Shown here: positions 12,825 through 37,545 of the stretch, in pieces | Numbering within the stretch: the first letter of the stretch is position 1 | Layout of the letters: every line of letters begins with the position of its first letter | Assembly: GCA_947588005.1 (NCBI GenBank) | Contig: CANPYE010000005.1 | Span: forward strand, 1-52,192 | Reading direction: 5' to 3' | Source: an uncultured Lachnospiraceae bacterium | GTDB taxonomy: Bacteria; Bacillota; Clostridia; Lachnospirales; Lachnospiraceae | Length of the DNA: 52,192 bases | Translations under genes and position numbers: made by a program | The notes under the pieces: generated by a model | What the model was told of the DNA's origin: nothing | The model's database searches: none | What the model saw: only the letters and a program-made list of their open reading frames with translations

Positions 12825-12832
12825 TGGTCAGC

Positions 12833-13147: not shown

Positions 13148-13162
13148 CACGGCGGAGCATTT

Positions 13163-13513: not shown

Positions 13514-13535
13514 CAGGGCAAGAAGGTGAACGAAA

Positions 13536-16160: not shown

Positions 16161-16172
16161 GAGGTGTGACAG

Positions 16173-18493: not shown

Positions 18494-18623
18494 GGGCAAA
18501 GCCCTGAGAGCGCCGCAGAGCGCTCCGAGGGGTGCCGGGCGGGGGAATTTACCCGCAAAGGCACGAAAGGGCGTTATAACGCGTGATAACGCGGTCAAAA
18601 CGGCAGGAAAAGAGGCGAGATAA
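18494..18623. other. 130-bp non-coding gap between the gpF and protease genes
   Basis: The largest gap inside the head-gene block. It contains AGGGC-AAA-GCCCT (18493-18505), GAGCGC/GCGCTC (18508-18525), the 12-bp palindrome GCGTTATAACGC (18571-18582) and, overlapping it, CGCGTGATAACGC (18580-18592), an exact copy of 3108-3120 in the left region. In Mu the strong gyrase site lies just upstream of gene I near the genome centre; this gap lies before the gene-I homolog, 15.7 kb from the left end of a 34.7-kb element. A gyrase-site role is inference only. Confidence 0.5.
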
Positions 18624-19652: not shown

Positions 19653-19655
19653 GCC

Positions 19656-20072: not shown

Positions 20073-20089
20073 GAAGGAGGGAAAACACA

Positions 20090-20986: not shown

Positions 20987-21004
20987 GGAAGGAGGGCGAC
21001 CGGG

Positions 21005-21472: not shown

Positions 21473-21476
21473 TGAG

Positions 21477-21965: not shown

Positions 21966-21968
21966 GAC

Positions 21969-22454: not shown

Positions 22455-22456
22455 GC

Positions 22457-22663
22457 ATGTCAGAAAGAAACACCGCGTCTCTGAAGACGATCGAGGAGCT
22501 GAAGGAGGAGCACAGCGTCCCTGATGCAGTCTTCGAGGGCGTGAAAGCATCAATGAACTGGAAGGCCGGGCGGCAGGTGACCGGGGAGGAGTTCTCGGCG
22601 GCCTGCGACGAGTTCCGGAACGCGCCGATCAACGGGCGCGAGAGGAAGGAGGCGAAGGGATAA
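22457..22663 (+). CDS. small phage protein before the sheath gene
   Basis: 68 aa, helical and charged (LKTIEELKEEHSVPDAVFEGVK, EFSAACDEFRNAPINGRERKEAKG). It holds the place of the short DUF2635-type gene (gp38) before the Mu sheath gene, but sequence similarity is not obvious. Its stop overlaps the sheath start by one base. Confidence 0.65.
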   Translation: MSERNTASLKTIEELKEEHSVPDAVFEGVKASMNWKAGRQVTGEEFSAACDEFRNAPINGRERKEAKG

Positions 22664-24090: not shown

Positions 24091-24107
24091 GAAGGAGGGA
24101 GAATATC

Positions 24108-24551
24108 ATGGCAAAGCAGCTCATCAACGGCAAGGTGTACGACTGGTCGAGCGTGACGATCAAAGCGTCCGGCATGGACAGCATCGAGCCGCAGGAAATC
24201 TCGTATGACGACGAGGAAGAGAACGAGCCGGTATACGGCAAGGGAGGGAAAATCCGGGGATATGGAACCGGGAACCAGAAGAACTCCGTGAAGCTCTCGC
24301 TCCTGCGCGAGGACTTCAACGAGATGTGCCGGGTGATCAAGTCCAAGGGATACAAGAGCTTTTATAAGTACGTAGTCCCGAAGATCACGGTATCCTATGC
24401 AGACACCGGGGCGGAAACCTGCACGGACACCCTGACGAACGTGAAGTTCTCAAAGCGCAGCTTCAAGGCGGCGCAGGGCGACAAGTCGATGAAGGTTGAT
24501 CTGGACGGCGTGGCATACGGCGGCATCAAGATCAACGGACTGGACGCGTAA
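24108..24551 (+). CDS. tail tube protein
   Basis: 147 aa, directly after the sheath gene, with beta-rich sequence (QLINGKVYDWSSVTIKASGMDSIEPQEISYDDEEE; NVKFSKRSFKAAQGDKSMKVDLDGVAYGGI). Size and order match Mu gpM-type tube proteins that line the inside of the sheath. Site GAAGGAGGGAGAATATC. Confidence 0.85.
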   Translation: MAKQLINGKVYDWSSVTIKASGMDSIEPQEISYDDEEENEPVYGKGGKIRGYGTGNQKNSVKLSLLREDFNEMCRVIKSKGYKSFYKYVVPKITVSYADTGAETCTDTLTNVKFSKRSFKAAQGDKSMKVDLDGVAYGGIKINGLDA

Positions 24552-24557
24552 CCATTC

Positions 24558-24575
24558 ACAGAATAAATGACAAAA
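24558..24575 (+). repeat. internal copy of the prophage left-end sequence
   Basis: ACAGAATAAATGACAAAA, matching 17 of 18 bases of 2801-2818 (ACAGAATAACTGACAAAA) at the left end and in the same orientation. It lies in the 37-bp gap between the tail tube and tail chaperone genes, just before a TGGAGG ribosome binding site. Confidence 0.6.
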
Positions 24576-24588
24576 TGGAGGTAATACC

Positions 24589-25005
24589 ATGAACATGAAA
24601 GAAGAAGGCATCCTCACGGCAGAGGAAGAGGCGCTGTTTGCGGCAGCGCAGGAAGCACAGAAGGCAAAGGGCACCGACATCGAGGCGCTGAAGAGGCAGT
24701 ATGCGGACAAGGGCGCGAAGGTGTACGTCGTGACCAACAGCGTGCAGATCGACGACGACACGGAAGAGGAGTTCGTCTACCTGTTCCGCAAGCCGAAGCC
24801 CGCATCCTACGACCGCTACGTGAAGCTGATCTCCAACTCGGCGAGCAAGGCGTCCAAGACCTTCGCCTTTGACAACATCGTCGAGGAGCAGAAGGAACAG
24901 CTCAGGGACGATCTGGAAGAATACCCGGCAATGGCGATCAGCCTTGCGGGCAAGCTCCTGAGCATGCTCGGACTGGCGGATATCACTACGGTAAAAAAAC
25001 TGTAG
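24589..25005 (+). CDS. tail assembly chaperone, 0-frame product (G)
   Basis: 138 aa. Helical, acidic (LTAEEEALFAAAQEAQKAKGTDIEALKRQYADKGAKVYVVTN; YVKLISNSASKASKTFAFDNIVEEQKEQLRDDLEEYP), as for tail chaperones encoded between tube and tape-measure genes. It ends two codons after a run of seven A residues that would allow a -1 shift into the downstream T frame. It binds the tape measure during tail assembly. Confidence 0.85.
   Translation: MNMKEEGILTAEEEALFAAAQEAQKAKGTDIEALKRQYADKGAKVYVVTNSVQIDDDTEEEFVYLFRKPKPASYDRYVKLISNSASKASKTFAFDNIVEEQKEQLRDDLEEYPAMAISLAGKLLSMLGLADITTVKKL
24993..24999 (+). other. slippery heptamer for a -1 programmed frameshift
   Basis: A-AAA-AAA read as GTA AAA AAA CTG TAG in frame 0; slipping back one base continues ACT GTA GAG GAT and opens 75 more codons. 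G/GT chaperone pairs of long-tailed phages use this device. A stem-loop (25237-25267) lies beyond the T frame and is too far to be the usual stimulator. Confidence 0.7.
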
Positions 25006-25226
25006 AGGATGCAAAGGAGGAGTTCAGGAGCAGCTTCATCAGCTACGGGAAGATGGTGATATACAGCTACCTTCCCCGGGAACTTCTCCCGGAAAACTTT
25101 GAAGACCTGACCTTCGAGGAGTTCTATGGACTGTACGCACAGGCGGACTGTGCGAGGGAAATGAGGATAGAGGACATCGAGGTCGGTGTTGCGAAAGGCA
25201 TTGCGGACAGTCTCGGAGACGAATGA
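24999..25226 (+). CDS. tail assembly chaperone, -1 frame extension (T)
   Basis: 75 codons without a good independent start, read only after a -1 shift, giving a GT fusion of about 212 aa. The sequence looks real: FRSSFISYGKMVIYSYLPRELL, ENFEDLTFEEFYGLYAQADCAREM, then a short tail; FEELTFEEF-like blocks are typical of T domains. An AAGGAGG (25014-25020) lies inside it, so separate initiation at a downstream codon such as GTG or ATG near 25050 cannot be excluded. Confidence 0.75.
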   Translation, partial: TVEDAKEEFRSSFISYGKMVIYSYLPRELLPENFEDLTFEEFYGLYAQADCAREMRIEDIEVGVAKGIADSLGDE

Positions 25227-25229
25227 CAC

Positions 25230-25267
25230 AAAAAAGGAATCCCCACAGCCGGGAGCTATGGGGATTC
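25230..25267 (-). terminator. stem-loop with a U-run on the minus strand
   Basis: GAATCCCCACAGC / GCTATGGGGATTC (25237-25267), a 13-bp stem with one mismatch and a 5-base loop. On the minus strand it is followed by TTTTTT (25235-25230), a terminator shape against antisense transcription. On the plus strand there is no T-run. The gap 25227-25339 also holds CTCTAAAAGGTCTC, similar to CCCTAAAGGGTCTC at 12722 before the late genes. Confidence 0.55.
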
Positions 25268-25339
25268 GGTACACCTCTAAAAGGTCTCTGAGGACAATTA
25301 TATCACGAATTTAAGAAAAAGCAACAGGGAGGCGATTGC

Positions 25340-28300
25340 ATGGGAATGGAATCCGTCTACAAGCTGTCCGTGATCGTCAACATGGTCGACAACCTCTCCG
25401 GCCAGATGTCCCAGATGCAGGGGAACGTGACCGGAGGCGTCAACAAGCTCAATTCAGCGTTCGGAACCATGCAGAAGGCAGGAGCGGCGATGGCAGGAGC
25501 CGGAGGCGCGATCACAGCCCTGTGCATGAAGACCGTGACATCCACCTTCGACACACAGAACGCCCTCGGGGAGCTCTCCTCACTGGGAGTCAAAGACCTG
25601 AAGGCGGTCGAGGCGGCGGCGAAGAGCTTCTCCGACACATGGGCAGGCACGAGCAAGGCCGACTTCATTACGGCATCCTATGATATCAAGTCAGGCATTG
25701 CGTCCCTGACGGACGAAGGGGTGGCGCAGTTCACCGAGCTTGCGGCACTCACGGGCAAGGCAACAAAATCAACGACAGAGGAGATGGGCTCCCTGTTCGC
25801 GACCGGGTACGGCATATACAAAGGCTTTTACGATGACATGTCAGACCTCGAGTTCGGCGAGATGTTCTCCGCGGGCATATCGACAGCAGTCAAGAACTAC
25901 AAAACGTCCGGCTCGGAGATGGCGAGCGCGATCTCCGCACTGGGCGCTACGGCGACCAACTCAAACGTCCCGCTCGAGGAACAGCTCGCGATACTGGGAC
26001 AACTGCAGACGACGATGTCAGGCTCGGAAGCGGCAACGAAGTACAAGTCCTTCCTGAACCAGGCGGCGAAGGCCGGGGAAGAGCTCGGACTGAAGTTTAC
26101 AGACGCGAACAACCAGCTCCTTTCAACACCGGAGATACTTACCGTCCTGAAGAGCAAGTACGGCGACACGATCGACGCGATCGAAAAGCAGGAACTGAAA
26201 AAGGCGTTCGGTACGGACGAGGCGGTCGCGATGATCGACCTCTTATACAACAACGTGGAGACGCTCGACTCGGGCATCCAAGACCTGTCCTCGAGCATGA
26301 AGCAGGGGACGTCGGTCACGAAGGAGATGGCGTCCGCAATCAATAACACGCCGGAGCAGAAGTTCGAGGTCTTAAAGCAGCAGATACACAACAACGTCGA
26401 GGAGTTAGGGAACGGGCTGCTCCCTGCAGTCAACAGCACCCTCGACTCCATAAGCGGGCTTATATCAAAGGGCTCCGAGTGGATAAGCAACAATCAGGAA
26501 CTCGTCACAACGATCATGAACATCGTGCTCAGGCTCGGCGTCTTTCTGTCGATAGCAGGGGCGGGCATCGCCCTGATCGGGACGCTCGGGAAGATCTTCC
26601 TGACGGCAAGGTCGGCGATCATGATGGTCAGGACGGCGGTCATGGGGATGAACACAGCGTTCCTCGCATCACCTGTCACGTGGGTCGTGTTGGCGATCGT
26701 GGGACTGGTCGCGGCGTTCGTCCTGCTATGGAACAAGTCGGAGGCGTTCCGCTCCTTCTGGATGAGCGTCTTTGAGCAGGTGAGGCAGGCCGTCTCGCAG
26801 GCATGGTCAGCGATACAGCCCGCACTGCAGCAGCTCGGACAGAAGCTTCAGGAACTATGGAAAGCGGCACAGCCAATCATAGAGGTCATGCAAAAGGTCG
26901 GCACTGTCGTCCTCGGGGTACTCGGCGGCATATTCGTCGGGGCGATTCAGGGCGTGATCTCGGCACTCGCTCCGCTCATCTCGGCATTTTCGCATCTGGT
27001 CGGTTTTGTGACCAACGTGGTCAAGGCGATCGTTTCGCTTTTCCGGGGCGATTTTTCCGGGGCGGTCGATTTTATCTCATCTGCGATAGATGAGCTTTGC
27101 GGCTTCTTTGAAGACGGGTTCAACGCGATCTTCTCGTTCGTAGAGAATTTTGCTTCAGGCTTCCTCGACGTGATCGGCAAGGCGCTTTCAGCGATCGGCA
27201 TAGACGCGTCCGGGGCGATCTCAAAGATCAAGACCGTCTTCTCGAACGGACTCAACGCGGTGAAGGGATTCTGCAGCAACATCTTAGGGGCTGCGGCGTC
27301 CACCGTAAAGGAAAAACTGAACAACATGAAGACCGCCTACGAGCAGCACGGCGGCGGCATAAAGGGCGTGGCAGCGGCAGCGATCGAAGGGGTGAAAGGC
27401 TTCTACACGTCCGGATTCACCTTCATCGATAACCTGACAGGCGGGAAGCTCTCTGCGATCAAGGAGAAGTTTTCATCGAAAATGTCAGAGGTCGCATCCG
27501 CGGTACAGTCAGGGATGGCGGCGGCGAAAGACTATGCGAACACGCAGCTCTCGGCCATGAAAGCGTCTTACGACTCACACGGCGGAGGAATCCGCGGGGT
27601 AGTGGCGGCGACTATGACGGGCGTCCGCGGCACCTTCAGCACAGCCTACTCGGCGATCAATACGCTGACGGGCGGAAGATTGGAGAGCATCCGGTCAACG
27701 ATCTCGTCAAAGATGGAGTCCGCGAAGGACAAGGTCAGCACAGCGCTCAGCAACGTCCAGAACTACTTCTCGACGAAGCTGTCCGCGGCAAGGACGACGG
27801 CGAGCACAGCCCTGAGCAACATCCAGAGTTCCTTCTCGACGAAGCTGTCCGCGGCAAGGACGACGGCGAGCACAGCCCTGAGCAACATCCAGAGTTCCTT
27901 CTCGACGAAGCTGTCCGCGGCAAGGACGACGGCGAGCACAGCCCTGAGCAACATCCAGAGTTCCTTCTCGACGAAGCTCTCGGCAGCGCGGTCGTCAGTG
28001 ACGTCGGCACTGAGCAGCATCAAGAGCTCCTTCAGCTCACACCTTAACGCTGCGAAGTCGACGGTGACATCAATATTATCGGAGATCAAGTCAGCGTTTT
28101 CGTCTAAGTTAGAGGCGGCTCGCTCGGCGGTAGCCGGGGCTATATCAAAAATCAAGTCTCTGTTCAACTTCTCGTGGAGCCTTCCGAGCATCAAGCTCCC
28201 ACACTTCAGCATCGAGGGCAGCTTCTCACTGACTCCCCCGAGCGTTCCGCACATCGCGGTGTCGTGGTACAAGGAAGGCGGCATCCTGAACTCGGCTACG

Positions 28301-28702
28301 ATCTTCGGGGCATCCGGAGGCAGGCTGTTAGGAGGCGGAGAAGCAGGGGCAGAGGCAGTCCTTCCCCTGTCAGAGCTGTGGAAGAACATGAAGGAAATCG
28401 TCGCAAGCGTCGTCCGCGGTGAGAACGAGGAAGGCGGCGAGAACATGCAGCAGACAGGAGCGAGCATCACGAGCGCCCTGTCATCCAAGGCATCCACGGT
28501 CAAGAGGGAGAAGGAAAGCAAGACAACAAAAGAAACAACAACCACAACAACGGAACGATGGGGAACCCGGAACGGCAGCTACATCGGCACGATCAACTTC
28601 ACGGTGGATATCAGCAAGATCAAAGACCTTCCTCTGCTCTACAAGCTGATCGACGAGCTGAAGGACGCGCAGAACCGGACAGACGTCCCCGTCACAGCAT
28701 AA
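25340..28702 (+). CDS. tail tape measure protein
   Basis: 1120 aa, the largest gene. Residues 1-360: TP901-type tape measure core (MLSEMQGNV-like start, then helices; AALTGKATKSTTEEMGSLFATGYGIYKG). Residues 390-460: strongly hydrophobic (VLRLGVFLSIAGAGIALIGTLGKIFL; WVVLAIVGLVAAFVLLWNKS). Residues 520-800: further helical, partly hydrophobic stretches and two related GGGIKGVAAAAIEGVKG/GGGIRGVVAATMTGVRG units. Residues 805-890: tandem 22-aa repeats. The C-terminus is Ser/Thr/Glu-rich (KESKTTKETTTTTTER). It sets tail length and may help DNA cross the membrane. Confidence 0.92.
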   Translation: MGMESVYKLSVIVNMVDNLSGQMSQMQGNVTGGVNKLNSAFGTMQKAGAAMAGAGGAITALCMKTVTSTFDTQNALGELSSLGVKDLKAVEAAAKSFSDTWAGTSKADFITASYDIKSGIASLTDEGVAQFTELAALTGKATKSTTEEMGSLFATGYGIYKGFYDDMSDLEFGEMFSAGISTAVKNYKTSGSEMASAISALGATATNSNVPLEEQLAILGQLQTTMSGSEAATKYKSFLNQAAKAGEELGLKFTDANNQLLSTPEILTVLKSKYGDTIDAIEKQELKKAFGTDEAVAMIDLLYNNVETLDSGIQDLSSSMKQGTSVTKEMASAINNTPEQKFEVLKQQIHNNVEELGNGLLPAVNSTLDSISGLISKGSEWISNNQELVTTIMNIVLRLGVFLSIAGAGIALIGTLGKIFLTARSAIMMVRTAVMGMNTAFLASPVTWVVLAIVGLVAAFVLLWNKSEAFRSFWMSVFEQVRQAVSQAWSAIQPALQQLGQKLQELWKAAQPIIEVMQKVGTVVLGVLGGIFVGAIQGVISALAPLISAFSHLVGFVTNVVKAIVSLFRGDFSGAVDFISSAIDELCGFFEDGFNAIFSFVENFASGFLDVIGKALSAIGIDASGAISKIKTVFSNGLNAVKGFCSNILGAAASTVKEKLNNMKTAYEQHGGGIKGVAAAAIEGVKGFYTSGFTFIDNLTGGKLSAIKEKFSSKMSEVASAVQSGMAAAKDYANTQLSAMKASYDSHGGGIRGVVAATMTGVRGTFSTAYSAINTLTGGRLESIRSTISSKMESAKDKVSTALSNVQNYFSTKLSAARTTASTALSNIQSSFSTKLSAARTTASTALSNIQSSFSTKLSAARTTASTALSNIQSSFSTKLSAARSSVTSALSSIKSSFSSHLNAAKSTVTSILSEIKSAFSSKLEAARSAVAGAISKIKSLFNFSWSLPSIKLPHFSIEGSFSLTPPSVPHIAVSWYKEGGILNSATIFGASGGRLLGGGEAGAEAVLPLSELWKNMKEIVASVVRGENEEGGENMQQTGASITSALSSKASTVKREKESKTTKETTTTTTERWGTRNGSYIGTINFTVDISKIKDLPLLYKLIDELKDAQNRTDVPVTA
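27767..27986 (+). repeat. tandem 66-bp repeats in the tape measure gene
   Basis: Three identical copies at 27767-27832, 27833-27898 and 27899-27964, and a partial fourth from 27965. Each encodes 22 residues (FSTKLSAARTTA, then STALSNIQSS). Diverged relatives continue on both sides (TALSNVQNYFSTKL before; SALSSIKSSFSSHLNAAK after). Confidence 0.9.
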
Positions 28703-28717
28703 GGAGGTGAGAGGGGC

Positions 28718-29278
28718 GTGCTGTATGTAACTGACAAGGTCATAAAGCTCGGGGGTGTCTACATCGGAGGGGAAGTCACTGACGTCGAGATCACGGAAGG
28801 GGCGACCATCTACGAAGCGCAGGACGACAAGGGCAAGATCAAAAGCAGGCAGCCGAACGGATACGAGACGTCGAAGGTCATCGTCAACGTCCTGTTGGAA
28901 GAGACAAAGAGCGAGACCACGCTGCAGCAGATCGCGCGCATCCAGACGCTCTTCAAAGCCCACGGCCAGACCAAGGCGAAGCTCCTCTCGATCGTGAATG
29001 AGGACTGTGCGGCGCGCGGCATCTCGTCAGTGTACTTCAAGAGCTTCACGACGAAGAAGGTCATCTCGGAGAGCAAGCGCGTCGCGTCCCTCGAGCTGTG
29101 GGCTCCGACGGTCGGGACGGTCAAGGTCACGAAAAAAAAGAAGAGCTCGACGAAGAAGGCTTCAAAGAAGAAGAGCTCAAAGAAGAAGACCACAAAGAAG
29201 AAAAGCAAGAGCCCGGCCAAAGACACGAGGAAGACCTCGGCGGCCAAGAAGAAGGCAAAGTCACTCAAAGGGAGATAG
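28718..29278 (+). CDS. baseplate/tail protein with Lys-rich tail (DUF6046-like)
   Basis: 186 aa from GTG 28718 behind AAGGAGGTGAGAGG. Residues 1-135 form a compact tail domain (VIKLGGVYIGGEVTDVEITE; TLQQIARIQTLFKAHGQTKAKLLSI) that resembles the DUF6046 tail proteins found after the tape measure. Residues 137-186 are almost only Lys, Ser, Thr, Ala, Arg (KKKKSSTKKASKKKSSKKK), like a histone H1 tail, suggesting contact with DNA or negatively charged surfaces. That tail is unusual for a baseplate protein. Confidence 0.7.
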   Translation: MLYVTDKVIKLGGVYIGGEVTDVEITEGATIYEAQDDKGKIKSRQPNGYETSKVIVNVLLEETKSETTLQQIARIQTLFKAHGQTKAKLLSIVNEDCAARGISSVYFKSFTTKKVISESKRVASLELWAPTVGTVKVTKKKKSSTKKASKKKSSKKKTTKKKSKSPAKDTRKTSAAKKKAKSLKGR

Positions 29279-29290
29279 GAGGCGGAGGCG

Positions 29291-30061
29291 GTGGAATACA
29301 AGAAGCTGACGTCTCCGGAGTTCCGGGTGACGGTCGGGGACTACATCCTGACGGACGGCATCGAGGTCGAGTGCTTCTCGAGCAAGGCTTCGCATCTTGA
29401 CTGGTGCAGGGTGGAGCTGTCGAACAAGCTGCAGGACATGATCACGTTCGAGGACATGGACGAGGCAGTGGTAGAGCTCGGGTATGACGACGATTTTGAC
29501 GTACTGATGGAAGGATATGCCCGGAAGGAACAGAAGGACTACTGGAAGGAAATCATGATCAAGGATGACCTGATGAAGCTCGAGAGGATAAAGGTCAAAG
29601 GCACCTTCATCGACTGCGAGCCGCAGGACGTCATCCGCTACATCCTGACCTGCGCGGGGATAGACGACTATGAGCTGTCCCCTGCGGCATATGGGAAAAA
29701 GGACAGGTTCTCGATCGAAGAGAAGGACGGCATCAGGGCGATCGCCGAGGTCAATGCGGCATGGGGCGTCAGCGCGGCCTTCTTCTTCCAGAACCGGAAG
29801 TTCCACTGGGGGACTACAGAAGAACAGGAGGAGCTCTACATCCTCGAAGAGGACGAGAGCATCCTGCGGCTGAACAAATACGGTGATCTGTGGGAGGCGG
29901 AAACTTTAGGCATACCGTGGATACACCACAGCCAACAGATCGAGGTGAGGCACAGCAAGTACACGGGGACGGTGGAAGTGGAGAAGACGATCGTCCGGAG
30001 CGATGATACAGGAGCTGTGCATATGTACATTTATTTCAAGGGAGGGGAACAGGATGTCTGA
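29291..30061 (+). CDS. baseplate hub protein (gpD/late control-like)
   Basis: 256 aa from GTG 29291. The pattern fits the late control D/hub family: SPEFRVTVGDYILTDGIEVECFSSKASHLDWCRVEL at the start, LKVKGTF-like strand, a helical QDVIRYILTCAGIDDYELS and an end with EVEKTIVRSDD. It should form the central hub under the tail tube. Overlaps the next gene by 8 bp. Confidence 0.75.
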   Translation: MEYKKLTSPEFRVTVGDYILTDGIEVECFSSKASHLDWCRVELSNKLQDMITFEDMDEAVVELGYDDDFDVLMEGYARKEQKDYWKEIMIKDDLMKLERIKVKGTFIDCEPQDVIRYILTCAGIDDYELSPAAYGKKDRFSIEEKDGIRAIAEVNAAWGVSAAFFFQNRKFHWGTTEEQEELYILEEDESILRLNKYGDLWEAETLGIPWIHHSQQIEVRHSKYTGTVEVEKTIVRSDDTGAVHMYIYFKGGEQDV

Positions 30062-30347
30062 CATGATGGCGAAATTTGTCCGGGAAACATTGGACGAGAC
30101 GCTGAAACAGGCATATCCTCACATGAGGTATCCGCCCTGCATGTGCGCGGAAGTGGTAGCGAGGAAGGCACAGGGAGGGAAAAACAGGTGCACGCTCAGA
30201 ATACTTGACAAAAACATGCTGCGCGACAACCAGTTCCCGGAGGTGCCGAACGTGCTGACGGACATCGAGGTGGAGCCGGGCGACCGGGTCGTGGTGCTCA
30301 TGATGTACGGCGAGTGCAATCCTTATATCGTCGGGAGGTGGAGCTGA
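30054..30347 (+). CDS. small baseplate protein with OB-like fold
   Basis: 97 aa from ATG 30054 behind GGGAGGGGAACAGG. Helix at the start (AKFVRETLDETLKQAYPHM), then strands (MCAEVVARKAQGGKNRCTLRIL; DIEVEPGDRVVVLMMYGECNPYIVGRW) like the OB domain of gpV/spike or DUF2577-type proteins. Placed between hub and wedge genes. Confidence 0.7.
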   Translation: MSDMMAKFVRETLDETLKQAYPHMRYPPCMCAEVVARKAQGGKNRCTLRILDKNMLRDNQFPEVPNVLTDIEVEPGDRVVVLMMYGECNPYIVGRWS

Positions 30348-30772
30348 TGCAGATGGTCGGGGAAGATGACATTGACATCCGGCTCGGCGAAGACGGTCAG
30401 CCGACAGCCGCCGAAGACGGGGAGAGCGGGCTCGTGTCAGATGACGAGTGCTGGTTCCAAGACCTGAAGAACGAGGCAATGTGCGAGCAGGGCGAGCTCT
30501 TCTACGAAGATCAGGAGGGCGACGACAGCTACGGATGGGGGCTTCTGGACTTCATGCAGGGCGAGTATGATGAGTTCGCCGAGATGGAGATACAGCAGCG
30601 CATCCGGTCGAAGATGGCGAAACGGGAATATATTGACTCCGGCAGCATCCAGATCGATGTGGAGTTCGACGGGCACATCTACAGGGTGCGCATCCGGTTC
30701 AAGCGCACAGACAGCAGCAATGAGTACACTATAGGCATCGAGAGCGATGGCGTGGAGGTGAGGATAGAATGA
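30347..30772 (+). CDS. baseplate wedge protein (gp25/gpW-like, DUF2634 type)
   Basis: 141 aa, coupled to the previous gene (TGATG). Starts acidic (MVGEDDIDIRLGEDGQPTAAEDGES), then the wedge-type block WFQDLKNEAMCEQGELFYEDQEGDDSYGWGLLDFM and VEFDGHIYRVRIRFKRTD. It precedes a baseplate J gene, the usual order. Confidence 0.8.
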   Translation: MQMVGEDDIDIRLGEDGQPTAAEDGESGLVSDDECWFQDLKNEAMCEQGELFYEDQEGDDSYGWGLLDFMQGEYDEFAEMEIQQRIRSKMAKREYIDSGSIQIDVEFDGHIYRVRIRFKRTDSSNEYTIGIESDGVEVRIE

Positions 30773-31905
30773 TAGAGGAAACCGTCATGGACAAGATCAT
30801 CCCCCTGCCGACCGAGGAAGATGAGATGGAAAAGGTTCAGGCAGAGCTCGAGGAGGAGGGGTTCCCGATCACGAACTTCAAGAAAGGCGGCGTCTTTTAC
30901 CATCTGGCAAGGATGCTCGTCATGATCTACATTGAGCTGAAGGAGCTTGCGAGGACTATCCTGAACTCCTGCTTCATCCGCCATGCGGAGGGAGACTGGC
31001 TCGAGATCAAGGCGGCGGACTTTTCAAAGTTCCGGAACGAAGCCAAGACGGCGAAGGGCTATGTGACCATTTACCGGGCAGAATACGAGAACGCGCTGCA
31101 GGTGACAAAGGGGCACTGCTTCAAGACAGAACCGGACGCCTCGGGGAACGAGCTGAAGTTCTACGCATGCGAGGAGACAGTCATCGGGGCGGGGGAACCG
31201 TCCGGGAAGGTTCTTGTCGAAGCGGAGAAGCCGGGCTCGTATTACAACATCTCACCCGGGAGGATAACGATATCAATGATACATCTCGACGGCATGGACA
31301 GGGTGAACAACGAGGAGGGGTGGCTCTTCGAGGAAGGGTCTGACGACGAGGACTATGAGTACCTGAGGGACAGATGCCTCAGCTCATGGGATGAGCTCGC
31401 GGCCAAGACGATCGAGGAAAAGCTCCGGAACAGGGCGAGGAGCGTGCCGGGCGTACTGGACGCCATGATCAACGCACAGCACCCGAGGGGGCAGGGCACA
31501 ACGGACATCATCATCACGGGGGCTGCAGGGGAGGCATCCCCGGAGCTGATCAGGCAGGTACAGGAAGAGTGCGACAAGCTCCGCGGGCAGTACGACGACT
31601 TCCTCGTCAAGAGCAGCGAGATCATCAAACAGGACTTCGACCTTACAGTCTACCTCGCGGAGGACGCCTCGACAGACGGCGTGGATGAGCAGGCGAAGAC
31701 CCTGATCGAGAACATGATGAAGCTGCCGAGGGGCGAGATGAACGCCCTGTACCGGGACAGCATCGTCCACACGCTCAGCGAGAAGATCACGGACTACAGG
31801 AAGACGGACATCCGGCTCCCGGCAGCCGATCAGCTCTATGATGAGGGCAAAGTGATCATCGCGGGCACTGTCCGGGTGGAGGTGAAGAACGTGACAAGGG
31901 GGTAA
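30769..31905 (+). CDS. baseplate assembly protein J-like (gp47)
   Basis: 378 aa. Baseplate J family signs: helical N-terminus, SCFIRHAEGDWLEIKAADF, AKGYVTIYRAEYENALQVTKGHCFKTEPDASGNELKFY, VEAEKPGSYYNISPGRIT, MDRVNNEEGWLFEEGSDDEDYEYLRDRCLSSWDEL, and VPGVLDAMINAQHPRGQGTTDI. It overlaps the wedge gene (ATGA). Confidence 0.92.
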   Translation: MIEETVMDKIIPLPTEEDEMEKVQAELEEEGFPITNFKKGGVFYHLARMLVMIYIELKELARTILNSCFIRHAEGDWLEIKAADFSKFRNEAKTAKGYVTIYRAEYENALQVTKGHCFKTEPDASGNELKFYACEETVIGAGEPSGKVLVEAEKPGSYYNISPGRITISMIHLDGMDRVNNEEGWLFEEGSDDEDYEYLRDRCLSSWDELAAKTIEEKLRNRARSVPGVLDAMINAQHPRGQGTTDIIITGAAGEASPELIRQVQEECDKLRGQYDDFLVKSSEIIKQDFDLTVYLAEDASTDGVDEQAKTLIENMMKLPRGEMNALYRDSIVHTLSEKITDYRKTDIRLPAADQLYDEGKVIIAGTVRVEVKNVTRG

Positions 31906-31908
31906 GCT

Positions 31909-33222
31909 ATGCTTGAAAATTTCATAGAGTATATGTGGTACCTTCTGACTACGCCGTTCAAAAAGATAAAGAAGACACTGAACAAGTGGTATGTATTCTG
32001 CAGGGTGTTCGGGCGTCGGTTCGATGACGCGAAGGAAAGCCTGCTGAGAGCCCGGGACGAGGGGATGGTAGCCACCTGCAGCGAACTGATGCTCCCGGTA
32101 CATGCAGCGGACAGGAAGCTGACAAGATATGCCGGGGAGGAGGCGGAGAACTTCCGGAAACGGATAGCTCTGCATGAAGAGGTCTGCAGGCTCGGGGGAC
32201 TGAATGAAGGCGTGCTCCTTGCGGTCAGCACCCTCGGCTATGACAATGTGGAGATAGTGAGGTACCGGGACTACAGGGGAGACGAGACAAGGTGGGCGGA
32301 GTTCATTGTGATCATCCGCATGGACATCGGCGACAGCCACCCGATCAGCTTCGACATACTCCGGAAGACTGTCAGGAAGTGGAAGGAAGTCGGTGCCCGG
32401 GACAATTACTCAATGGCGTACACGACGTCCGTGAAGACGAGCGAGCGCAACACCTACCGGGTGACATACCGGAAGTTCCTCTACTTCTTCAATTACCGGA
32501 AGCTCGACGGACGGTGGCAGCTCGACGGCACCTACCTGTTGGATGCTGTCATCCACGAGTACCCGACGCGCATCGGGTTCCGGTACCGGGGCGTAGATTA
32601 CAGCACCGGCCACAAGGCCAGGCTGTCGGATGCGTGGTACCACTGCAGGAACAACCATACGGAACGCAACGCCTACCGGGTGGCATACATTGAGAAGTTT
32701 ATCTACTATGACTACCTGAGGCTCGACGGACGGTGGCAGCTTGACGGCAGCGAGCTCCTGAACGGGCAGATCGCTCCGGAGGAGATCAGGTGGGCGGCAT
32801 GGTACCGGGCAGAACATCAGGAGACAGTACAGCAGAGCATAAGCTACCGGATGGCAGGAAGCAGGGAGCCGAAAGAGGATATCTCATTCAGCGGGAAGTA
32901 CAGGCTCACGCTTGACTACTTCGATTACCTGAAGCTTAACGGACTGTGGTACCTGACAGGCTCGAGGATGCTGAACGCCCAGAGGGCACCGCGGAACATC
33001 CGCATGTCAGTCATGACGGGAGTGCTGCACGAGCACAGGACGGACAGCCGGACAGAGTACCGGACGGTGATCAAAGAGCACATGGAGGCAGAAGCGACAG
33101 GCAACAGGTACAGGCTCACGCTTGACTACTTCGATTACCTGAAGCTCAACGGACTGTGGTACCTGACAGGCTCGAGGGCACTGGACGCCCAGAGATCAGG
33201 GTACCCGGTAAGAATCGAATAA
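31909..33222 (+). CDS. baseplate/tail protein with four C-terminal repeats
   Basis: 437 aa. Residues 1-165 fit the gp48/DUF2313-type tail protein that follows baseplate J (LRARDEGMVATCSELMLPVHAADRKLTRYAGEEAENFRKRIALHEEVCRLGG). From about residue 180, four units of 55-75 aa follow, each ending in a Y-x2-L-(D/N)-G-x-W-x-L-x-G motif: KLDGRWQLDGTYLLDA, RLDGRWQLDGSELLNG, KLNGLWYLTGSRMLNA and KLNGLWYLTGSRALDA. The repeats may form a rigid stalk that links the baseplate to the fibre. I know no family with this C-terminal part. Confidence 0.75.
   Translation: MLENFIEYMWYLLTTPFKKIKKTLNKWYVFCRVFGRRFDDAKESLLRARDEGMVATCSELMLPVHAADRKLTRYAGEEAENFRKRIALHEEVCRLGGLNEGVLLAVSTLGYDNVEIVRYRDYRGDETRWAEFIVIIRMDIGDSHPISFDILRKTVRKWKEVGARDNYSMAYTTSVKTSERNTYRVTYRKFLYFFNYRKLDGRWQLDGTYLLDAVIHEYPTRIGFRYRGVDYSTGHKARLSDAWYHCRNNHTERNAYRVAYIEKFIYYDYLRLDGRWQLDGSELLNGQIAPEEIRWAAWYRAEHQETVQQSISYRMAGSREPKEDISFSGKYRLTLDYFDYLKLNGLWYLTGSRMLNAQRAPRNIRMSVMTGVLHEHRTDSRTEYRTVIKEHMEAEATGNRYRLTLDYFDYLKLNGLWYLTGSRALDAQRSGYPVRIE
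32898..33177 (+). repeat. two 70-bp near-identical direct repeats
   Basis: 32898-32967 and 33108-33177 differ at one base, 210 bp apart, in the last two repeat units of the preceding gene. Their near identity at DNA level shows recent duplication or gene conversion. Confidence 0.8.
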
Positions 33223-33237
33223 ACGGAGGACAGAAAA

Positions 33238-33618
33238 ATGGCAGCAAGGAACTGTATCACGAACATCAGAAGGAAGAAGATGAGCGAGGCAGCACATACG
33301 ACCGGACGGCTTGCGAAGGTCAAGTGGATAGCGCTCGGCTCAGGCGGAGTGAACGGAAACCGGGAGGTGATCGAACCGCTCCCGGCCAACACGAAGCTCA
33401 AAAACGAGGTGGTCAGGAGGGAGTATACCTCGTCCACAAAGAAATCGGACTACTGCTACGAATACGAGATCAGGCTCTCTGAACTCGAATTTGTAGGGAC
33501 GTATTTCTCCGAGATGGCACTGATCGACGAGGACGGCGACGTGATCGCCTTCTCCAACTTCCTCGAAAAAGGCAAGGACGAGACAGAAGTCAGCTTCTTC
33601 ATCGAAGACAACTATTAA
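33238..33618 (+). CDS. tail-associated protein, fibre N-terminus type
   Basis: 126 aa. IRRKKMSEAAHTTGRLAKVKWIALGSGGVNGNREVIEPLPANTKLKNEVVRREYTSS with a following FVGTYFSEMALIDEDGDVIAF resembles the N-terminal, baseplate-binding part of phage tail fibres. It lies between baseplate genes and the DGR target. Likely an adaptor. Site AACGGAGGACAGAAAA. Confidence 0.65.
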   Translation: MAARNCITNIRRKKMSEAAHTTGRLAKVKWIALGSGGVNGNREVIEPLPANTKLKNEVVRREYTSSTKKSDYCYEYEIRLSELEFVGTYFSEMALIDEDGDVIAFSNFLEKGKDETEVSFFIEDNY

Positions 33619-33631
33619 GGAGGGCTGAGAG

Positions 33632-33826
33632 ATGGCAAAGATCACAGCATCAGAGAACCCGGCATTTACAGAGGAGATGGAGGCGATGGAGCGCACCACT
33701 CCGGCACACTACAAAGAATTTAACGACAGATATCAGCAGCTTCTCGACAACGACAAGTTCCTGAGGGAGCCGGGGCTGATCGTATCAGGCGGCATGGTCT
33801 GCCAAGAATTTGAACAGGAGGATTAG
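33632..33826 (+). CDS. small tail-region protein, unknown
   Basis: 64 aa, helical first half (FTEEMEAMERTTPAHYKEFNDRYQQLLDNDKFL), then GLIVSGGMVCQEFEQED. ATG behind AAGGAGGGCTGAGAG. No family recognised; directly before the DGR target and perhaps its chaperone or partner. Confidence 0.65.
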   Translation: MAKITASENPAFTEEMEAMERTTPAHYKEFNDRYQQLLDNDKFLREPGLIVSGGMVCQEFEQED

Positions 33827-33829
33827 ACA

Positions 33830-35050
33830 ATGAGCAAAGTCACAAAACCGATACTTTTAGATGAGACAGGAAAGAAGATGGTAGAGGAGCTGCACACACA
33901 GAACATGCTCCTGAACGTCATGGCGGGCGTAAACCTCGAGATGAGCAACAGCCTTCCGGAGATCAGGAAGATCGTGCAGTCCGGGAACGCTGACAAGGTA
34001 TTCAATGTCGGAGACCAGATCGTCGCCCCGTGGAAGGACGTGGAGACCGGGCAGAAATACGATGTTCCGTGGAATGTCACGCACTTCGCGGATGTTACCC
34101 TCGCGGACGGTACGGAAGTCCCGGGCATGTTCATCCAATGGAACTACTGCACGCCGTTCGGCGTCCAGTTCGACCAGTATGAAGCGTTCTACGTCTGCAA
34201 GGACAGAGAACTGCCTGCGGGCACCTACCACATCACTGTGGGGGCAACATGGGGGACAAACTGCAAGGAGGGAGAGACCTATCAGTTCGCGCTCACGAAG
34301 CCTGTACCGCAGGGCGGACAGCTTGCCGGATTCTACCGGATGCCGGATGTGGCGGCTGCTGAGTGGAAGGTCTATTCCTTCAAAGACGGCAACACGACAG
34401 AACCGATCGAGACCGCGTCAGTCACACAGGGCGATGCCGGGCAAGACCTCGGCAGCTTCATCCCTGCAGGGAACGAGCAGCTCAACAGCCTGCACAGGCT
34501 CGCCTATGGGTATAACAGGTGGTCACAGAGCGCCCTCAGGCAATGGCTCAACAGCAACGCCGCGAAGGGCAAGTGGTGGACGCCGCAGAACGATTACGAC
34601 CGCATCCCTGACCAGTGCGCGCAGAAGGCGGGCTTCCTGACGGGATTCGATGAGGAGTTCCTCTCGTGCGTGCAGCCGATCAAGGTGGTCACTGCCCTGA
34701 ATACGGTAACTGACAAATCGGTCGGCGAGAACGAGACCACATACGACAGGTTCTTCCTTCCGTCCCTCGAGCAGATGTACATTACACCGCAGGCGGCAGG
34801 AGTGGAAGGAGAGGTCTGGGAGTATTGGAAGCGGGCTGCAGGGCTGACGGAGCCGATGAAACAGTACCAGACCTATCCGCAGGTCAGAACATTCGGCATT
34901 GAGAACAAGGCGGCTGCGCAGAACGTCCGCCTGCGGTCGGCGAGTCGCGGCGACGCGGGCAACACGTGGTACGTCAGCTCGAGCGGCTACGTCAGCAGCT
35001 GCAGCGCGTTCATCGCGACTCGGTGCGCCCCGGCTTGCGTAATCTGCTGA
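33830..35050 (+). CDS. DGR target protein (variable C-type-lectin-like ligand-binding protein)
   Basis: 406 aa, ATG behind AACAGGAGGATTAGAC. Residues 1-60 helical (EELHTQNMLLNVMAGVNLEMSNSLPEIRKIV), likely for anchoring to the tail. Residues 60-180 beta-rich. Residues 185-406 resemble the DUF6273/C-type-lectin-like fold: LHRLAYGYNRWSQSALRQWLNSNAAKGKWW, GFDEEFLSCVQPIKVVTALNT, TYDRFFLPSLEQMYI, and the end NVRLRSASRGDAGNTWYVSS. The final residues 362-403 are encoded by the variable repeat; the 13 codons that differ from the template give Ser, Asp, Gly, Ser, Tyr, Ser, Ser, Cys, Ser, Phe, Ile, Thr and Ala. Probably the receptor-binding protein at the tail tip. Stop codon lies 13 bp after the VR. 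Confidence 0.9.
   Translation: MSKVTKPILLDETGKKMVEELHTQNMLLNVMAGVNLEMSNSLPEIRKIVQSGNADKVFNVGDQIVAPWKDVETGQKYDVPWNVTHFADVTLADGTEVPGMFIQWNYCTPFGVQFDQYEAFYVCKDRELPAGTYHITVGATWGTNCKEGETYQFALTKPVPQGGQLAGFYRMPDVAAAEWKVYSFKDGNTTEPIETASVTQGDAGQDLGSFIPAGNEQLNSLHRLAYGYNRWSQSALRQWLNSNAAKGKWWTPQNDYDRIPDQCAQKAGFLTGFDEEFLSCVQPIKVVTALNTVTDKSVGENETTYDRFFLPSLEQMYITPQAAGVEGEVWEYWKRAAGLTEPMKQYQTYPQVRTFGIENKAAAQNVRLRSASRGDAGNTWYVSSSGYVSSCSAFIATRCAPACVIC
34915..35037 (+). repeat. DGR variable repeat (VR)
   Basis: 123 bp at the 3' end of the target gene, aligned without gaps to 35531-35653. There are 15 mismatches, each opposite an adenine in the template; the 91 non-adenine positions are all identical. The last shared bases are TTG (35035-35037). 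The invariant GC-rich 3' part TCGGTGCGCCCCGG is the likely homing start. Confidence 0.97.
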
Positions 35051-35059
35051 TCAGGCAAT

Positions 35060-35083
35060 CCCGGGCGAACACCTTCGCCCGGG
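35060..35083 (+). other. hairpin/cruciform just downstream of the VR
   Basis: CCCGGGCGAA-CACC-TTCGCCCGGG: a perfect 10-bp inverted repeat with a 4-base loop, 22 bp after the VR end and 9 bp after the target stop. DGRs such as that of Bordetella phage BPP-1 need a hairpin here for efficient homing. There is no T-run, so it is not a usual terminator. Confidence 0.8.
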
Positions 35084-35099
35084 TGCCGGGAGGATAGAC

Positions 35100-35510
35100 A
35101 TGGTTAGAGCATGCGACAGAGGCGAGGGAAAGTTCGATACACTCACAAAGGCGCTCCGGCTTGCGACGTATACCGTGGACATCACGGACAACAAAAACGT
35201 CTTCAAACCGGGACATGAGAAGATCGTCGAGCGTATCGTATACCTTGCCACAGACATATATCACAGGGCGAGGGTCGCAAATGACATCCGAGTAAAAGCG
35301 GTCGAAGACCTGCAGGAGAGGAACCGACTGCAGAACCAAGCGATCGCGGAGTGCGACCACCTGCTGAGTGAGATTCAGATAGCGAAAGGAGTCTTCCATC
35401 TCCGCCTGAAGAGAATCCGCTACTGGGGCGGCATGGTGGAGGAGGTAAAGGGCTATCTGAGACATTGGAGAGATTCAGATGCAGACCGCTTCCGTAAAAC
35501 GAAGCGATAA
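35100..35510 (+). CDS. avd: DGR accessory variability protein (Avd)
   Basis: 136 aa, basic and all-helical: LTKALRLATYTVDITDNKNVFKPGHEKIVERIVYLATDIYHRARVAND, then ERNRLQNQAIAECDHLLSEIQIAK and a C-terminal KRIRYWGGMVEEVKGYLRHWRDS. Four helices and a surplus of Lys/Arg match Avd, a pentameric four-helix-bundle protein related to 23S rRNA intervening-sequence proteins. It binds the reverse transcriptase and template RNA. It lies between target and TR, as in BPP-1. Site CGGGAGGATAGAC. Confidence 0.93.
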   Translation: MVRACDRGEGKFDTLTKALRLATYTVDITDNKNVFKPGHEKIVERIVYLATDIYHRARVANDIRVKAVEDLQERNRLQNQAIAECDHLLSEIQIAKGVFHLRLKRIRYWGGMVEEVKGYLRHWRDSDADRFRKTKR

Positions 35511-35530
35511 GCTCAGGATGTAGGCTGTAA

Positions 35531-35653
35531 TGCGCAGAACGTCCGCCTGCGGTCGGCGAATCGCGGCAACGCGAACAACACGTGGTACGTCAACTCGAGC
35601 GGCAACGTCAACAACAACAACGCGATCAACGCGAATCGGTGCGCCCCGGATTG
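35531..35653 (+). repeat. DGR template repeat (TR)
   Basis: 123 bp between avd and the RT gene. It has 32 adenines, of which 15 differ in the VR. The adenines are concentrated in AAC/AAT codons of the target frame (a run of four AAC near 35607-35618), the usual design that yields many amino acids but no stop codon. It is not itself part of a translated gene. Confidence 0.97.
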
Positions 35654-35813
35654 GATGCTTCAGACAGACCGTGGAGCCTTAGCACAGCGAGGTGGTCAGG
35701 ACAGGGAGCATGCAAGGAGCCGAAATCCTGCCGGGTAACCGGAAAACAATACCGTGGTGATGCGGTCATCCTACGGGATGGTACCGCTATCCACACCGCG
35801 GATGAGGAGGAAA
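35654..35813 (+). ncRNA. DGR spacer RNA between TR and RT
   Basis: 160 bp without a convincing gene. In BPP-1 about 140 nt of RNA after TR are needed with Avd and RT to prime cDNA from the template RNA, and this stretch has the same place and size. It contains complementary GC-rich parts (ACCGTGGTGATGCGGT and CCACACCGCGGAT). An in-frame extension of RT to 35754 exists but the strong site GATGAGGAGG before ATG 35814 argues against it. Confidence 0.65.
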
Positions 35814-36911
35814 ATGAATGTAGAGGAGATCATAGGTTTTGAAGCACTTTATGAGTCCATGAACAAGTGCGTCAAGGGCGTCCTGTGGAAGGACGGCGTC
35901 GCGTTCTATTATCATAACTGGATTCGAGAGACGCTGAGACTGGAAAGGGAGCTGCACGACGGAACCTACAAGGAGAGGCCGCCGAAGTTCTTCACAGTGA
36001 CGGAGCCGAAGACCCGGGAGATCATGAGCATCGCGTTCCGGGACAGGGTATATCAGAGAAGCCTCAACGACAAGGCGATCTACCCGATGACGACCAGATC
36101 GTTCATATATGACAACCACGCATGCCAGAAGGGCAAAGGGACAGACAAAGCCCGGAGGAGGCTCGTCTGCTTCCTGCAGAAGTATTACAGAAAGCATGGG
36201 GCTGAAGGGTACGTCCTTCAATGTGATATCAAGGGATATTATCCGAACATGTGGCACGATGTGGCGAAGCAGGTGCTGAGAAAATACCTCGACGACAACA
36301 TCTACCAGATGGCAGCCGATATCCTCGATAATTTCCCCGGAGAAGTAGGATTCAATCCGGGCAGCCAGATCATCCAGATCGTAGGCATCACGGCCTTGAA
36401 CGACTTAGACCACTACATCAAAGAGCGGCTGCTCATCGAGTTCTATATCCGATATATGGACGACTTCAACCTCATCCACGAAAAGTACGAAAAATTAGAA
36501 GAGAGCCTCGGAAGCATCCAGAACATCCTCGCAGGGACGCACATGGAGCTCAACATGGAGAAGACGCACATCCGCCATATCAAGGATGGCATCCGGTTCC
36601 TCGGCTTCTATTTCAGACTTACTGACACAGGGAAGGTGGTAATTACGATCGACCCGAAGAAAGTGAAGCACGAGAGGAAGAAGCTGCGCAGGATGGTCGC
36701 CCTTGTAAAGAAAGGCGAAAAGACCAGAGCACAGGTCGACGAGCACTTCGAGTCATGGAAGAAAAGTGCTTCGTTCGGGGACTCATTCAAGATGCTTCAA
36801 AGAATGGACGAATTTTATAAAAGTTTATGGGAGGAAGATGACGATGGCATTCTTCAAAAAGCTGAGAACAACGATTCAGGAAGCGAGACAGCAGGAGCAG
36901 GTCGCGGCTGA
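35814..36911 (+). CDS. DGR reverse transcriptase
   Basis: 365 aa, ATG after GATGAGGAGGAAA. A compact RT without extra domains, as in DGRs. Motifs: FRDRVYQRSLNDKAIYPMTTRSFIYDNHACQKGKGTDKARRRL (fingers), LQCDIKGYYPNM with catalytic Asp138, FNPGSQIIQ at 180-188, YMDD at 214-217 and LNMEKTHIRHIKDGIRFLGFYF at the end of the palm. The order target-avd-TR-RT fixes it as a DGR enzyme. It makes adenine-mutagenised cDNA from TR. The DGR signature usually reads GxxxSQ; here the Ser is replaced by Ile (GSQIIQ). Confidence 0.96.
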   Translation: MNVEEIIGFEALYESMNKCVKGVLWKDGVAFYYHNWIRETLRLERELHDGTYKERPPKFFTVTEPKTREIMSIAFRDRVYQRSLNDKAIYPMTTRSFIYDNHACQKGKGTDKARRRLVCFLQKYYRKHGAEGYVLQCDIKGYYPNMWHDVAKQVLRKYLDDNIYQMAADILDNFPGEVGFNPGSQIIQIVGITALNDLDHYIKERLLIEFYIRYMDDFNLIHEKYEKLEESLGSIQNILAGTHMELNMEKTHIRHIKDGIRFLGFYFRLTDTGKVVITIDPKKVKHERKKLRRMVALVKKGEKTRAQVDEHFESWKKSASFGDSFKMLQRMDEFYKSLWEEDDDGILQKAENNDSGSETAGAGRG

Positions 36912-37014
36912 CATTGCGAAGCAGGCGGCACTCCTCGAGTATGTGGCGATCATGGCAGACGTGGAGCTGCCAGATGCGAGCGATGAAGAAAGTGAGGGAC
37001 TGAGCCATGAGTAG
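36844..37014 (+). CDS. small protein after the RT gene, unknown
   Basis: 56 aa, overlapping the RT 3' end by 68 bp in another frame. ATG 36844 is nine bases after GGGAGG; ATG 36838 is an alternative. A basic helix (FFKKLRTTIQEARQQEQVAADIAKQAALLEYVAIMADVELPD) with an acidic end. Its place before an XkdX gene suggests a tail-region helper rather than a DGR part. Confidence 0.65.
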   Translation: MAFFKKLRTTIQEARQQEQVAADIAKQAALLEYVAIMADVELPDASDEESEGLSHE

Positions 37015-37183
37015 AACATCCAGTATAGCAGTGAAGGAAAAGAGCAAGAACTTCGACAAGTACAAAAGATTCTACGACTCGAATATGTGGACGAAGAAGA
37101 TGGTCTACAACGTCGTGGAGAAGGGAGCCCTGACCGCTGAGGAATACGAGGAGATCACGGGCGAGCCATACGATAAAGAGTAG
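37007..37183 (+). CDS. XkdX family protein
   Basis: 58 aa. KNFDKYKRFYDSNMWTKKMVYNVVEKGALTAEEYEEITGEPYDKE is a clear XkdX pattern (found in PBSX-like and other Firmicutes phages next to tail fibre genes). Function unknown. It overlaps the previous gene by 8 bp. Confidence 0.85.
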   Translation: MSRTSSIAVKEKSKNFDKYKRFYDSNMWTKKMVYNVVEKGALTAEEYEEITGEPYDKE

Positions 37184-37252
37184 TGAGAATATTCCCTGCA
37201 GAGCCCTCACACACCGCGGGGGCGTCTGTGGGGGTATTTAAGGAGTGACAGC

Positions 37253-37405
37253 ATGAAAAGCATCATTATCAAAATCAGACTGCGCTTTCCGGTCAATGGG
37301 ACACTCCTGAACGACCTGAGCCGACTGCTCGAGCATTATCTGAAGAACAGGGGCATCCCGTTCGGGCGCATCGACGCGGCTGTGAAGCTCGATGAAAATG
37401 AGTGA
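37253..37405 (+). CDS. small basic protein at the prophage right end, unknown
   Basis: 50 aa, ATG behind TTTAAGGAGTGACAGC. Strand then amphipathic helix (SIIIKIRLRFPVNGTLLNDLSRLLEHYLKNRGIPFG). Last gene of the prophage. No family recognised. Confidence 0.6.
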   Translation: MKSIIIKIRLRFPVNGTLLNDLSRLLEHYLKNRGIPFGRIDAAVKLDENE

Positions 37406-37436
37406 CGTTATTCTCAATTAAACTGTCAAAAAGGAG
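37405..37436 (+). promoter_or_regulatory. second copy of the 32-bp late-region motif
   Basis: Same pattern as 12793-12824 (ACGTTATTCTCAA, nine free bases, CAAAAAGGAG) but here no gene follows within the prophage. It therefore need not be a ribosome binding site and may be a protein-binding or promoter element near the right end. Confidence 0.45.
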
Positions 37437-37456
37437 AGGGTGAGAGCCCTCTCCTT
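37431..37456 (-). terminator. intrinsic terminator read leftward at the right end
   Basis: AAGGAGAGGG-TGAGAG-CCCTCTCCTT, a 10-bp stem. On the minus strand it is followed by TTTTTGAC, so it would stop transcripts entering from the host side. On the plus strand no T-run follows, so late transcripts may read into the host permease remnant. Confidence 0.6.
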
Positions 37457-37470
37457 CGTGCCTAAAAATC

Positions 37471-37540
37471 CGGGAAATATTTCCCGAAAAGTTTTGTCAA
37501 AAGTTTTGAGAATTTTTGTCAAAAATTTTGAGCGGCTACA
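37471..37540. other. prophage right end (transposase end sites)
   Basis: Ends GCGGCTACA. Read inward, TGACAAAA boxes start 19 bp (37521) and 41 bp (37499) from the end, 22 bp apart, the spacing expected for repeated transposase sites on one DNA face. A perfect 16-bp palindrome CGGGAAATATTTCCCG lies at 37471-37486. Confidence 0.75.
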
Positions 37541-37545
37541 GCATT
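37541..37545. repeat. target-site duplication, right copy (GCATT)
   Basis: Matches 2787-2791. Confidence 0.9.

Follow-up and report, generated by a model that had tools for sequence, protein, structure and literature searches.

A diversity-generating retroelement of a Mu-like Lachnospiraceae prophage and its reverse transcriptase clade without the SQ motif

The 52,192-nt stretch analyzed here (the window; positions 1 to 52,192 of contig CANPYE010000005.1, assembly GCA_947588005.1, from an uncultured Lachnospiraceae bacterium) contains a Mu-like prophage with a diversity-generating retroelement (DGR) at 33830..36911. We conclude with high confidence that this is an intact DGR of a transposable phage that would diversify a probable receptor-binding tail protein, and that its cassette is a module exchanged between phages, with a reverse transcriptase (RT) from a clade lacking the SQ motif. 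Neither the DGR, which is genuine and complete, nor the phage is of a new kind; what the element adds is the exchanged module and the SQ-less RT clade. The prophage, its cassette features, the 64-aa open reading frame and the MuA, MuB-like, portal, sheath and collar fiber genes given below are on the + strand.

Results

The cassette is complete and its variable repeat departs from the template only at adenines

The target gene, variable repeat (VR), hairpin, avd, template repeat (TR) and RT gene are all present, unbroken and in the canonical order, as a first-pass annotation of the window had proposed. The target gene (33830..35050) encodes a 406-aa protein with a C-terminal DUF6273 (PF19789, E 4e-12, residues 222-403) and contains the VR (34915..35037). 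The VR and TR are 123-nt repeats, 616 nt apart; the TR (35531..35653) has 32 A residues and is non-coding, lying between avd (35100..35510) and the RT gene (35814..36911). The accessory protein Avd (phrog_3206, E 4e-8) is 68-72% identical to its counterparts on the related contigs L007, L008 and L009; its one match to a solved structure, at E 0.91, is given no weight. The RT, for which ATG 35814 is the best start and is preferred over GTG 35754, belongs to the DGR clade by its matches to phrog_1423 (E 3e-81) and, at the profile level, to the Bordetella phage RT (bRT) chain 8ub7. It also matches RVT_1, retains an intact YMDD and has NPGSQIIQ as motif 4.

The hairpin (35060..35083) begins 22 nt 3' of the VR and has a 10-bp stem and the 4-nt loop CACC; its z-score is -3.70, and 0/200 shuffles were as good. 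The stems of the L007 and L008 hairpins have another sequence, with the pairing kept and the CACC loop unchanged; 1/200 shuffles were as good for L008, and for L007 the advantage over shuffles is weak (13/200). Both the stem length and the distance from the VR are within the ranges given for phage DGR hairpins, 7-10 bp and 4-34 bp after the VR, in the available part of the published description (PMC3240598). Two further marks of DGR membership are likewise present, an Avd-type accessory protein and an initiation of mutagenic homing (IMH) site with a post-VR hairpin. As a separate observation, the post-VR hairpin is repeated in L008 and L009: past position 9176 there are at least two complete copies, each with loop CACC, and a third begins.

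The VR and TR differ at 15/123 positions, every one at a TR adenine (15/32 A; 0/91 other bases). The chance of 15 random mismatches all falling on A is 8e-11 (hypergeometric). Read in the target frame, the TR holds 13 Asn codons (11 AAC, 2 AAT), 11 of which are altered in the VR; altogether 13/40 VR codons are altered relative to the TR. AAC is described as enriched in native DGR templates in the portion available of a recent report (PMC12875486). The mismatch at 35034 (TR A, VR C) is part of a CCGGATTG/CCGGCTTG ending found again in relatives: among 40 of the 81 loci listed, the last A mismatch lies within CCGGATTG in 14, and it reads C in 14/14. Judged by this recurrence, the A to C change at 35034 probably reflects a fixed difference between IMH and IMH* rather than mutagenesis; 14 mismatches would then be attributable to mutagenesis.

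We propose that an RT-Avd complex copies TR RNA and misincorporates opposite adenines, and that the cDNA would then replace the VR, with a G/C-rich IMH-like stretch and the hairpin as markers of the VR 3' end. The codons rewritten would be mainly those for Asn, in the C-terminal DUF6273 of a protein whose gene directly follows the tail-fiber genes. In the phage population, this probable receptor-binding tail protein would thereby be presented in many versions.

Some relatives of the cassette differ at the VR and almost nowhere else

The contigs L008 and L009 come from two IMG assemblies; they share the cassette type of the window (RT 72%, target 66%, Avd 72%) and show 16 differences over 12,543 bp, with identical TRs. 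Fifteen of 127 VR bases differ, all at TR adenines, and outside the VR the count is 1/12,416. Because the two differ in the VR at TR adenines and almost nowhere else, comparative sequence evidence indicates that the DGRs of these relatives are active in nature. We compared 15 pairs of relatives, of 24 distinct pairs listed, and the VR differs in 12 of the 15. L047 and L048 differ at 20/120 VR positions, all TR A, and at 1/5,922 positions elsewhere; the corresponding counts are 4/123, all TR A, and 0/8,897 for L096/L097, and 19/117, all TR A, and 33/5,384 for L119/L122. The RT nearest to that of the window among those found is 74% identical. By analogy with these relatives, we infer that the window DGR is itself active.

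The cassette is carried by a complete Mu-like prophage

The prophage occupies 2792..37540 (34,749 bp) and has TG...CA ends, which were located via a 5-bp target-site duplication, GCATT, with identical left (2787..2791) and right (37541..37545) copies. Removal in silico of the prophage plus one GCATT yields a 303-aa ABC-permease-like host open reading frame (ORF) with 0 internal stops. The prophage encodes a MuA-type transposase (5084..7288; PF02914, PF09299), 49% identical to that of Faecalibacterium phage Mushu (Mushuvirus mushu, NC_047913), and a MuB-like AAA ATPase (7438..8403; PF13401, PF05621; 58% to Mushu). A Mu-type portal, Portal_Mu (16173..17762; PF06074, E 8e-109), and the sheath of a contractile tail (22663..24090; phrog_907) are accompanied by GemA, Mor, a Mu-like protease, gpT and baseplate J. 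Hallmarks of a Mu-like phage found here are a MuA DDE transposase with MuB, a 5-bp duplication, TG..CA ends, and Mu-type head and contractile tail genes. The element is a complete Mu-like transposable prophage, predicted to transpose replicatively. The earlier reading, in which the DGR closes the late operon of a contractile-tailed Mu-like phage, is right. There are no tRNA genes within the window, so the insertion is outside tRNA genes, and Rfam gave 0 matches at the gathering threshold.

The first-pass annotation had also suggested that one host could carry several diversified copies. None was seen: each of the three genomes with a strong MuA match (the window's own, an 81%-complete draft, and genomes G333 and G270) has a single one, though with a draft of that completeness extra copies may have been missed. 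Several copies of the cassette in this host were likewise considered and rejected. The genome shows one full cassette only, and three further DNA matches were discounted; the longest falls on the TR that belongs to the second, unlike DGR of this genome (contig C4), and the remaining two are 16-base matches with E 0.3.

The target is probably a receptor-binding tail protein

The target gene follows a gene for a tail collar fiber N-terminal-like protein (33238..33618; PF12571, phrog_1780) and a 64-aa ORF (33632..33826). On the related contig L150 a homologue of this ORF (63% over 51 aa) forms the N terminus of the target, and this fusion ties the target to the fiber genes. The target is probably a receptor-binding protein that would be located on the tail and act in adsorption; the earlier label of tail-tip protein is plausible. 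Its C-terminal DUF6273 domain is probably C-type-lectin-like. Against solved structures, the target matched the IgA protease chain 9qa6 (E 1e-4 and 7e-7), all other matches having E >=0.25, and no Mtd chain was among them. The Tentaclins, as described in the available text (PMC10743442), are DGR targets with a DUF6273-like C-lectin domain, as in the window target; theirs is N-terminal and followed by immunoglobulin (Ig) domains, whereas the DUF6273 of the window target is C-terminal.

Upstream of these genes, the tail protein encoded at 31909-33222 ends C-terminally in a series of LDGRWQLDG / LNGLWYLTG-like repeat units, which are present in L150 too; its Mushu homologue (30603-31460) is shorter.

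Three cassette types occupy one locus in related phages

The evidence for exchange comes from 43 window proteins, 38 encoded before the fiber gene at 33238 and 5 from it on. Twenty-nine of the 38 non-cassette proteins match Mushu, collinearly and at 33-62%, and 9 are without a match. Of the five from 33238 on, the RT alone matches Mushu, at 23%, with no match for Avd or the target; against L008/L009 these five give 37-72% (module 59-72%, fiber gene 37%). The L009 record contains a different MuA, 25-28% alike, with Mu transposase domains. The L150 contig has a MuA 82% and a fiber gene 70% like those of the window, and at the same locus a DGR of a third type (RT 31-33%, SQ type, 11/14 mismatches at TR A). 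This third type also occurs on contig C4 of the window's genome (RT 47%, Avd 46%, target 32% over 238 aa). Since three cassette types are found at one locus of related phages, the diversifying cassette is, by these comparisons, a replaceable module that appears to be exchanged between phages at that locus. The search for related prophages by RT and MuA, suggested in the first pass, did turn up relatives (Mushu MuA 49%, L150 MuA 82%, RT <=74%).

Several further features of these contigs were noted. The second, different DGR of the window's genome (G000:C4, L039 9446-12805) has a 310-aa target with DUF6273, a 241-aa Avd-like protein, an RT with motif GIGSQISQ, and 17/18 VR/TR mismatches at A. 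A further RT match, at 29%, lies elsewhere in this genome (G000:C6:3004-3666, L003). On L150, near 5560, the MuA match breaks off after residue 602, and from that point the contig matches baseplate J from its residue 204 onward, which reflects an internal deletion or an assembly join. In L151 (G270:C30:1-20000), a Mu-like prophage relative, the last tail-gene match is 745 bases from the contig end, about the expected DGR site, and the assembly may have been broken there by variability.

The RT falls in a clade that lacks the SQ motif

Motif 4 of the window RT, NPGSQIIQ, aligns with PIGSLTSQ of the solved bRT chain 8ub7 (profile match E 1e-27). Counted by hand on this alignment, P182 of the window RT is opposite bRT I181, and I187 is opposite S186. 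Handa et al. reportedly found in 2021 that bRT residues R74 and I181 affect adenine misincorporation. An arginine is present opposite R74 in 105/105 sequences, the window RT among them.

We assembled 108 RT rows, duplicates included, by likeness to the clade (best 80 of 97) and from genome and phage matches; motif 4 was not part of the peptide patterns used. Eighty-two read NPGSQ[MLI][VI]Q, 10 are near variants also ending in IQ or VQ, and 16 have SQ or NQ. At the first position of the motif, 89 of the 92 rows ending in [VI]Q have P and the other 3 have A, and G follows. The proportion 92/108 is not a natural frequency, since resemblance to the clade was the basis on which the RT loci were collected. 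In a FastTree phylogeny of 105 sequences, the 85 of the [VI]Q type are separated from the other 20 by one split with support 1.0 (0.851 after rooting at Mushu).

Repeat pairs beside the RT were found in 81/87 non-duplicate clade loci (the other six being L005, L074, L082, L117, L121 and L128), and 1292/1328 of their mismatches are at TR adenines, with no locus below 70%. The count first used a filter for pairs with >=70% of mismatches at A; an unfiltered recount on the longest RT-adjacent repeat gave the same 81/87 and 1292/1328. The loci are not independent, and taking one per 70% RT cluster gives 452/475 mismatches at A in 30 clusters. The VR is upstream of the TR in 81/81 clade loci. A small SQ/NQ comparison set has a repeat pair in 6/15 loci, with 82/87 mismatches at A. 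We lean slightly toward the view that this phage-borne RT clade retains adenine-directed mutagenesis even though the residue corresponding to bRT I181 is P (rarely A) and that corresponding to S186 is V or I.

According to the available part of a 2012 survey (PMC3521204), (I/V/L)GxxxSQ in RT motif 4 is a hallmark in 90% of elements and not universal; part of the motif is almost invariant, and the last two residues vary in 15/155 elements, VQ included. The same survey put forward the SQ motif as governing RT fidelity. Our literature search, over those parts of the texts that were available, found no description of the [VI]Q motif 4 variant. The data of Roux et al. 2021 may well include the [VI]Q clade; in the available main text of their survey the word "motif" is absent (PMC8144416).

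Discussion

Several observations weigh against the reading proposed here. Identical VRs were found in 3/15 pairs of relatives (L047/L050, L079/L083 and L079/L080). In L010/L011, a pair too diverged to tell, TR A accounts for only 4/18 of the VR differences, and in L069/L070 for 15/22. Only one VR state of the window phage was seen, and an exact TR pattern scan of viral contigs gave 0 near-identical copies. The hairpin has a CACC loop and so differs from other phage DGRs, for which the accessible text (PMC3240598) describes GRNA. The AlphaFold model of the target, from 6 sequences, is poor (mean predicted local distance difference test score, pLDDT, 43.9; residues 211-406 <50), and PHROGs gives the target a match to a Hoc-like head-decoration protein. 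Records of MuA relatives, most of them short, contain a matching RT in 1/14 (L017). A Mu transposase C-terminal domain is present in 1/33 clade records (19-145 kb, many perhaps fragments), and for this reason we do not regard the cassette type as typical of Mu-like phages. Lastly, motif 4 of the RT does not fit the DGR hallmark (I/V/L)GxxxSQ. Since other dipeptides are on record in published DGRs and the adenine bias is present, we take the SQ motif as a usual mark of DGR membership, not as a condition.

Could the DGR have been recently silenced, its parts still legible after homing ceased in this lineage? In favor of this, the genome draft gives one VR state, and the variable region of Mushu is described, in the part of the report available, as lacking a peak in bacterial genome reads and having a shifted peak in three other experiments (PMC11792537). 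On the other side, no part of the cassette is broken, the YMDD and the R74-equivalent arginine are retained, and relatives with a 72% RT appear active. We consider recent silencing quite unlikely. That the VR and TR are instead an ordinary duplication drifted apart has next to no probability and was rejected: repeats of this length can arise in that way, but 15/15 changes at A (P 8e-11) count against it. Moreover, the same bias recurs in the 81/87 clade loci with a repeat beside the RT, and Avd lies between the repeats with the RT after them.

A somewhat less improbable alternative, though still a doubtful one, concerns the target, which, instead of binding receptors at the tail, might be a Hoc-like capsid decoration that alters how the phage sticks to mucus or surfaces. 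The match to phrog_10993 (E 2e-17) points that way, and the Mushu target is so annotated. However, the match is limited to the DUF6273 part (residues 222-394, profile 50-228 of 556), and the Mushu target has an Ig domain match (PF17963) and no match to the window target; on these grounds we rejected Hoc-like decoration as the first reading. The gene order and the L150 fusion favor an association with the fiber genes. We retain the reading of an intact DGR acting on a probable receptor-binding tail protein.

The order target-VR-hairpin-avd-TR-RT is that of the Bordetella phage BPP-1 DGR (mtd, avd, brt), to whose bRT (8ub7) the window RT is homologous. The two differ in motif 4 (PIGSLTSQ in bRT, NPGSQIIQ in the window) and in the hairpin loop (GRNA in BPP-1, CACC in the window). 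The window cassette type and order are found in the IMG/VR contigs L008 and L009, the metagenome-assembled-genome contig L007 (RT identity 72-74% for these three) and phage MT835491 (54%), in which, unlike the window prophage, no Mu transposase C-terminal domain was found. Mushu, the nearest named phage by MuA (49%) in the phage collection searched, with terminase 62% and portal 57%, is like the window element a Mu-like phage that infects a Firmicute and carries its DGR at the right end; its record ends TGTG...CTACA, and the TG..CA ends are common to both. Its cassette order differs (Avd, TR, RT, target; TR 32765, VR 34819, 11/11 mismatches at A). With backbone proteins 33-62% like those of Mushu and a dissimilar cassette, the window prophage falls outside the genus Mushuvirus. 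Mushu and a 2013 paper by Toussaint, whose title reportedly states that DGRs occur in Mu-like Firmicutes phages, are direct precedents, and the first-pass view that such phages are little described does not hold. Since DGR-carrying Mu-like Firmicutes phages are already in print, the window prophage is a new member of that group.

The available accounts describe Mushu as Mu-like and DGR-carrying, with VR variation in reads (PMC5883640), and report that the DGR target is the main difference between a palaeofaecal Mushu genome and its modern counterpart (PMC10805732). The DGR of the Bacteroides Hankyphage, likened here by its available description only, is also carried by a transposable phage whose host is a gut bacterium, although one of another phylum. 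The window prophage extends this known theme of gut Mu-like phages diversifying a surface protein, and adds the view of the diversifying cassette as a replaceable module. The RT clade, which shows signs of activity without SQ, is a natural experiment on which residues make DGR enzymes misread adenine. If it does retain adenine-directed mutagenesis, either the SQ motif would not be the cause of the adenine errors, or the clade would attain the same error profile through another arrangement of the active site.

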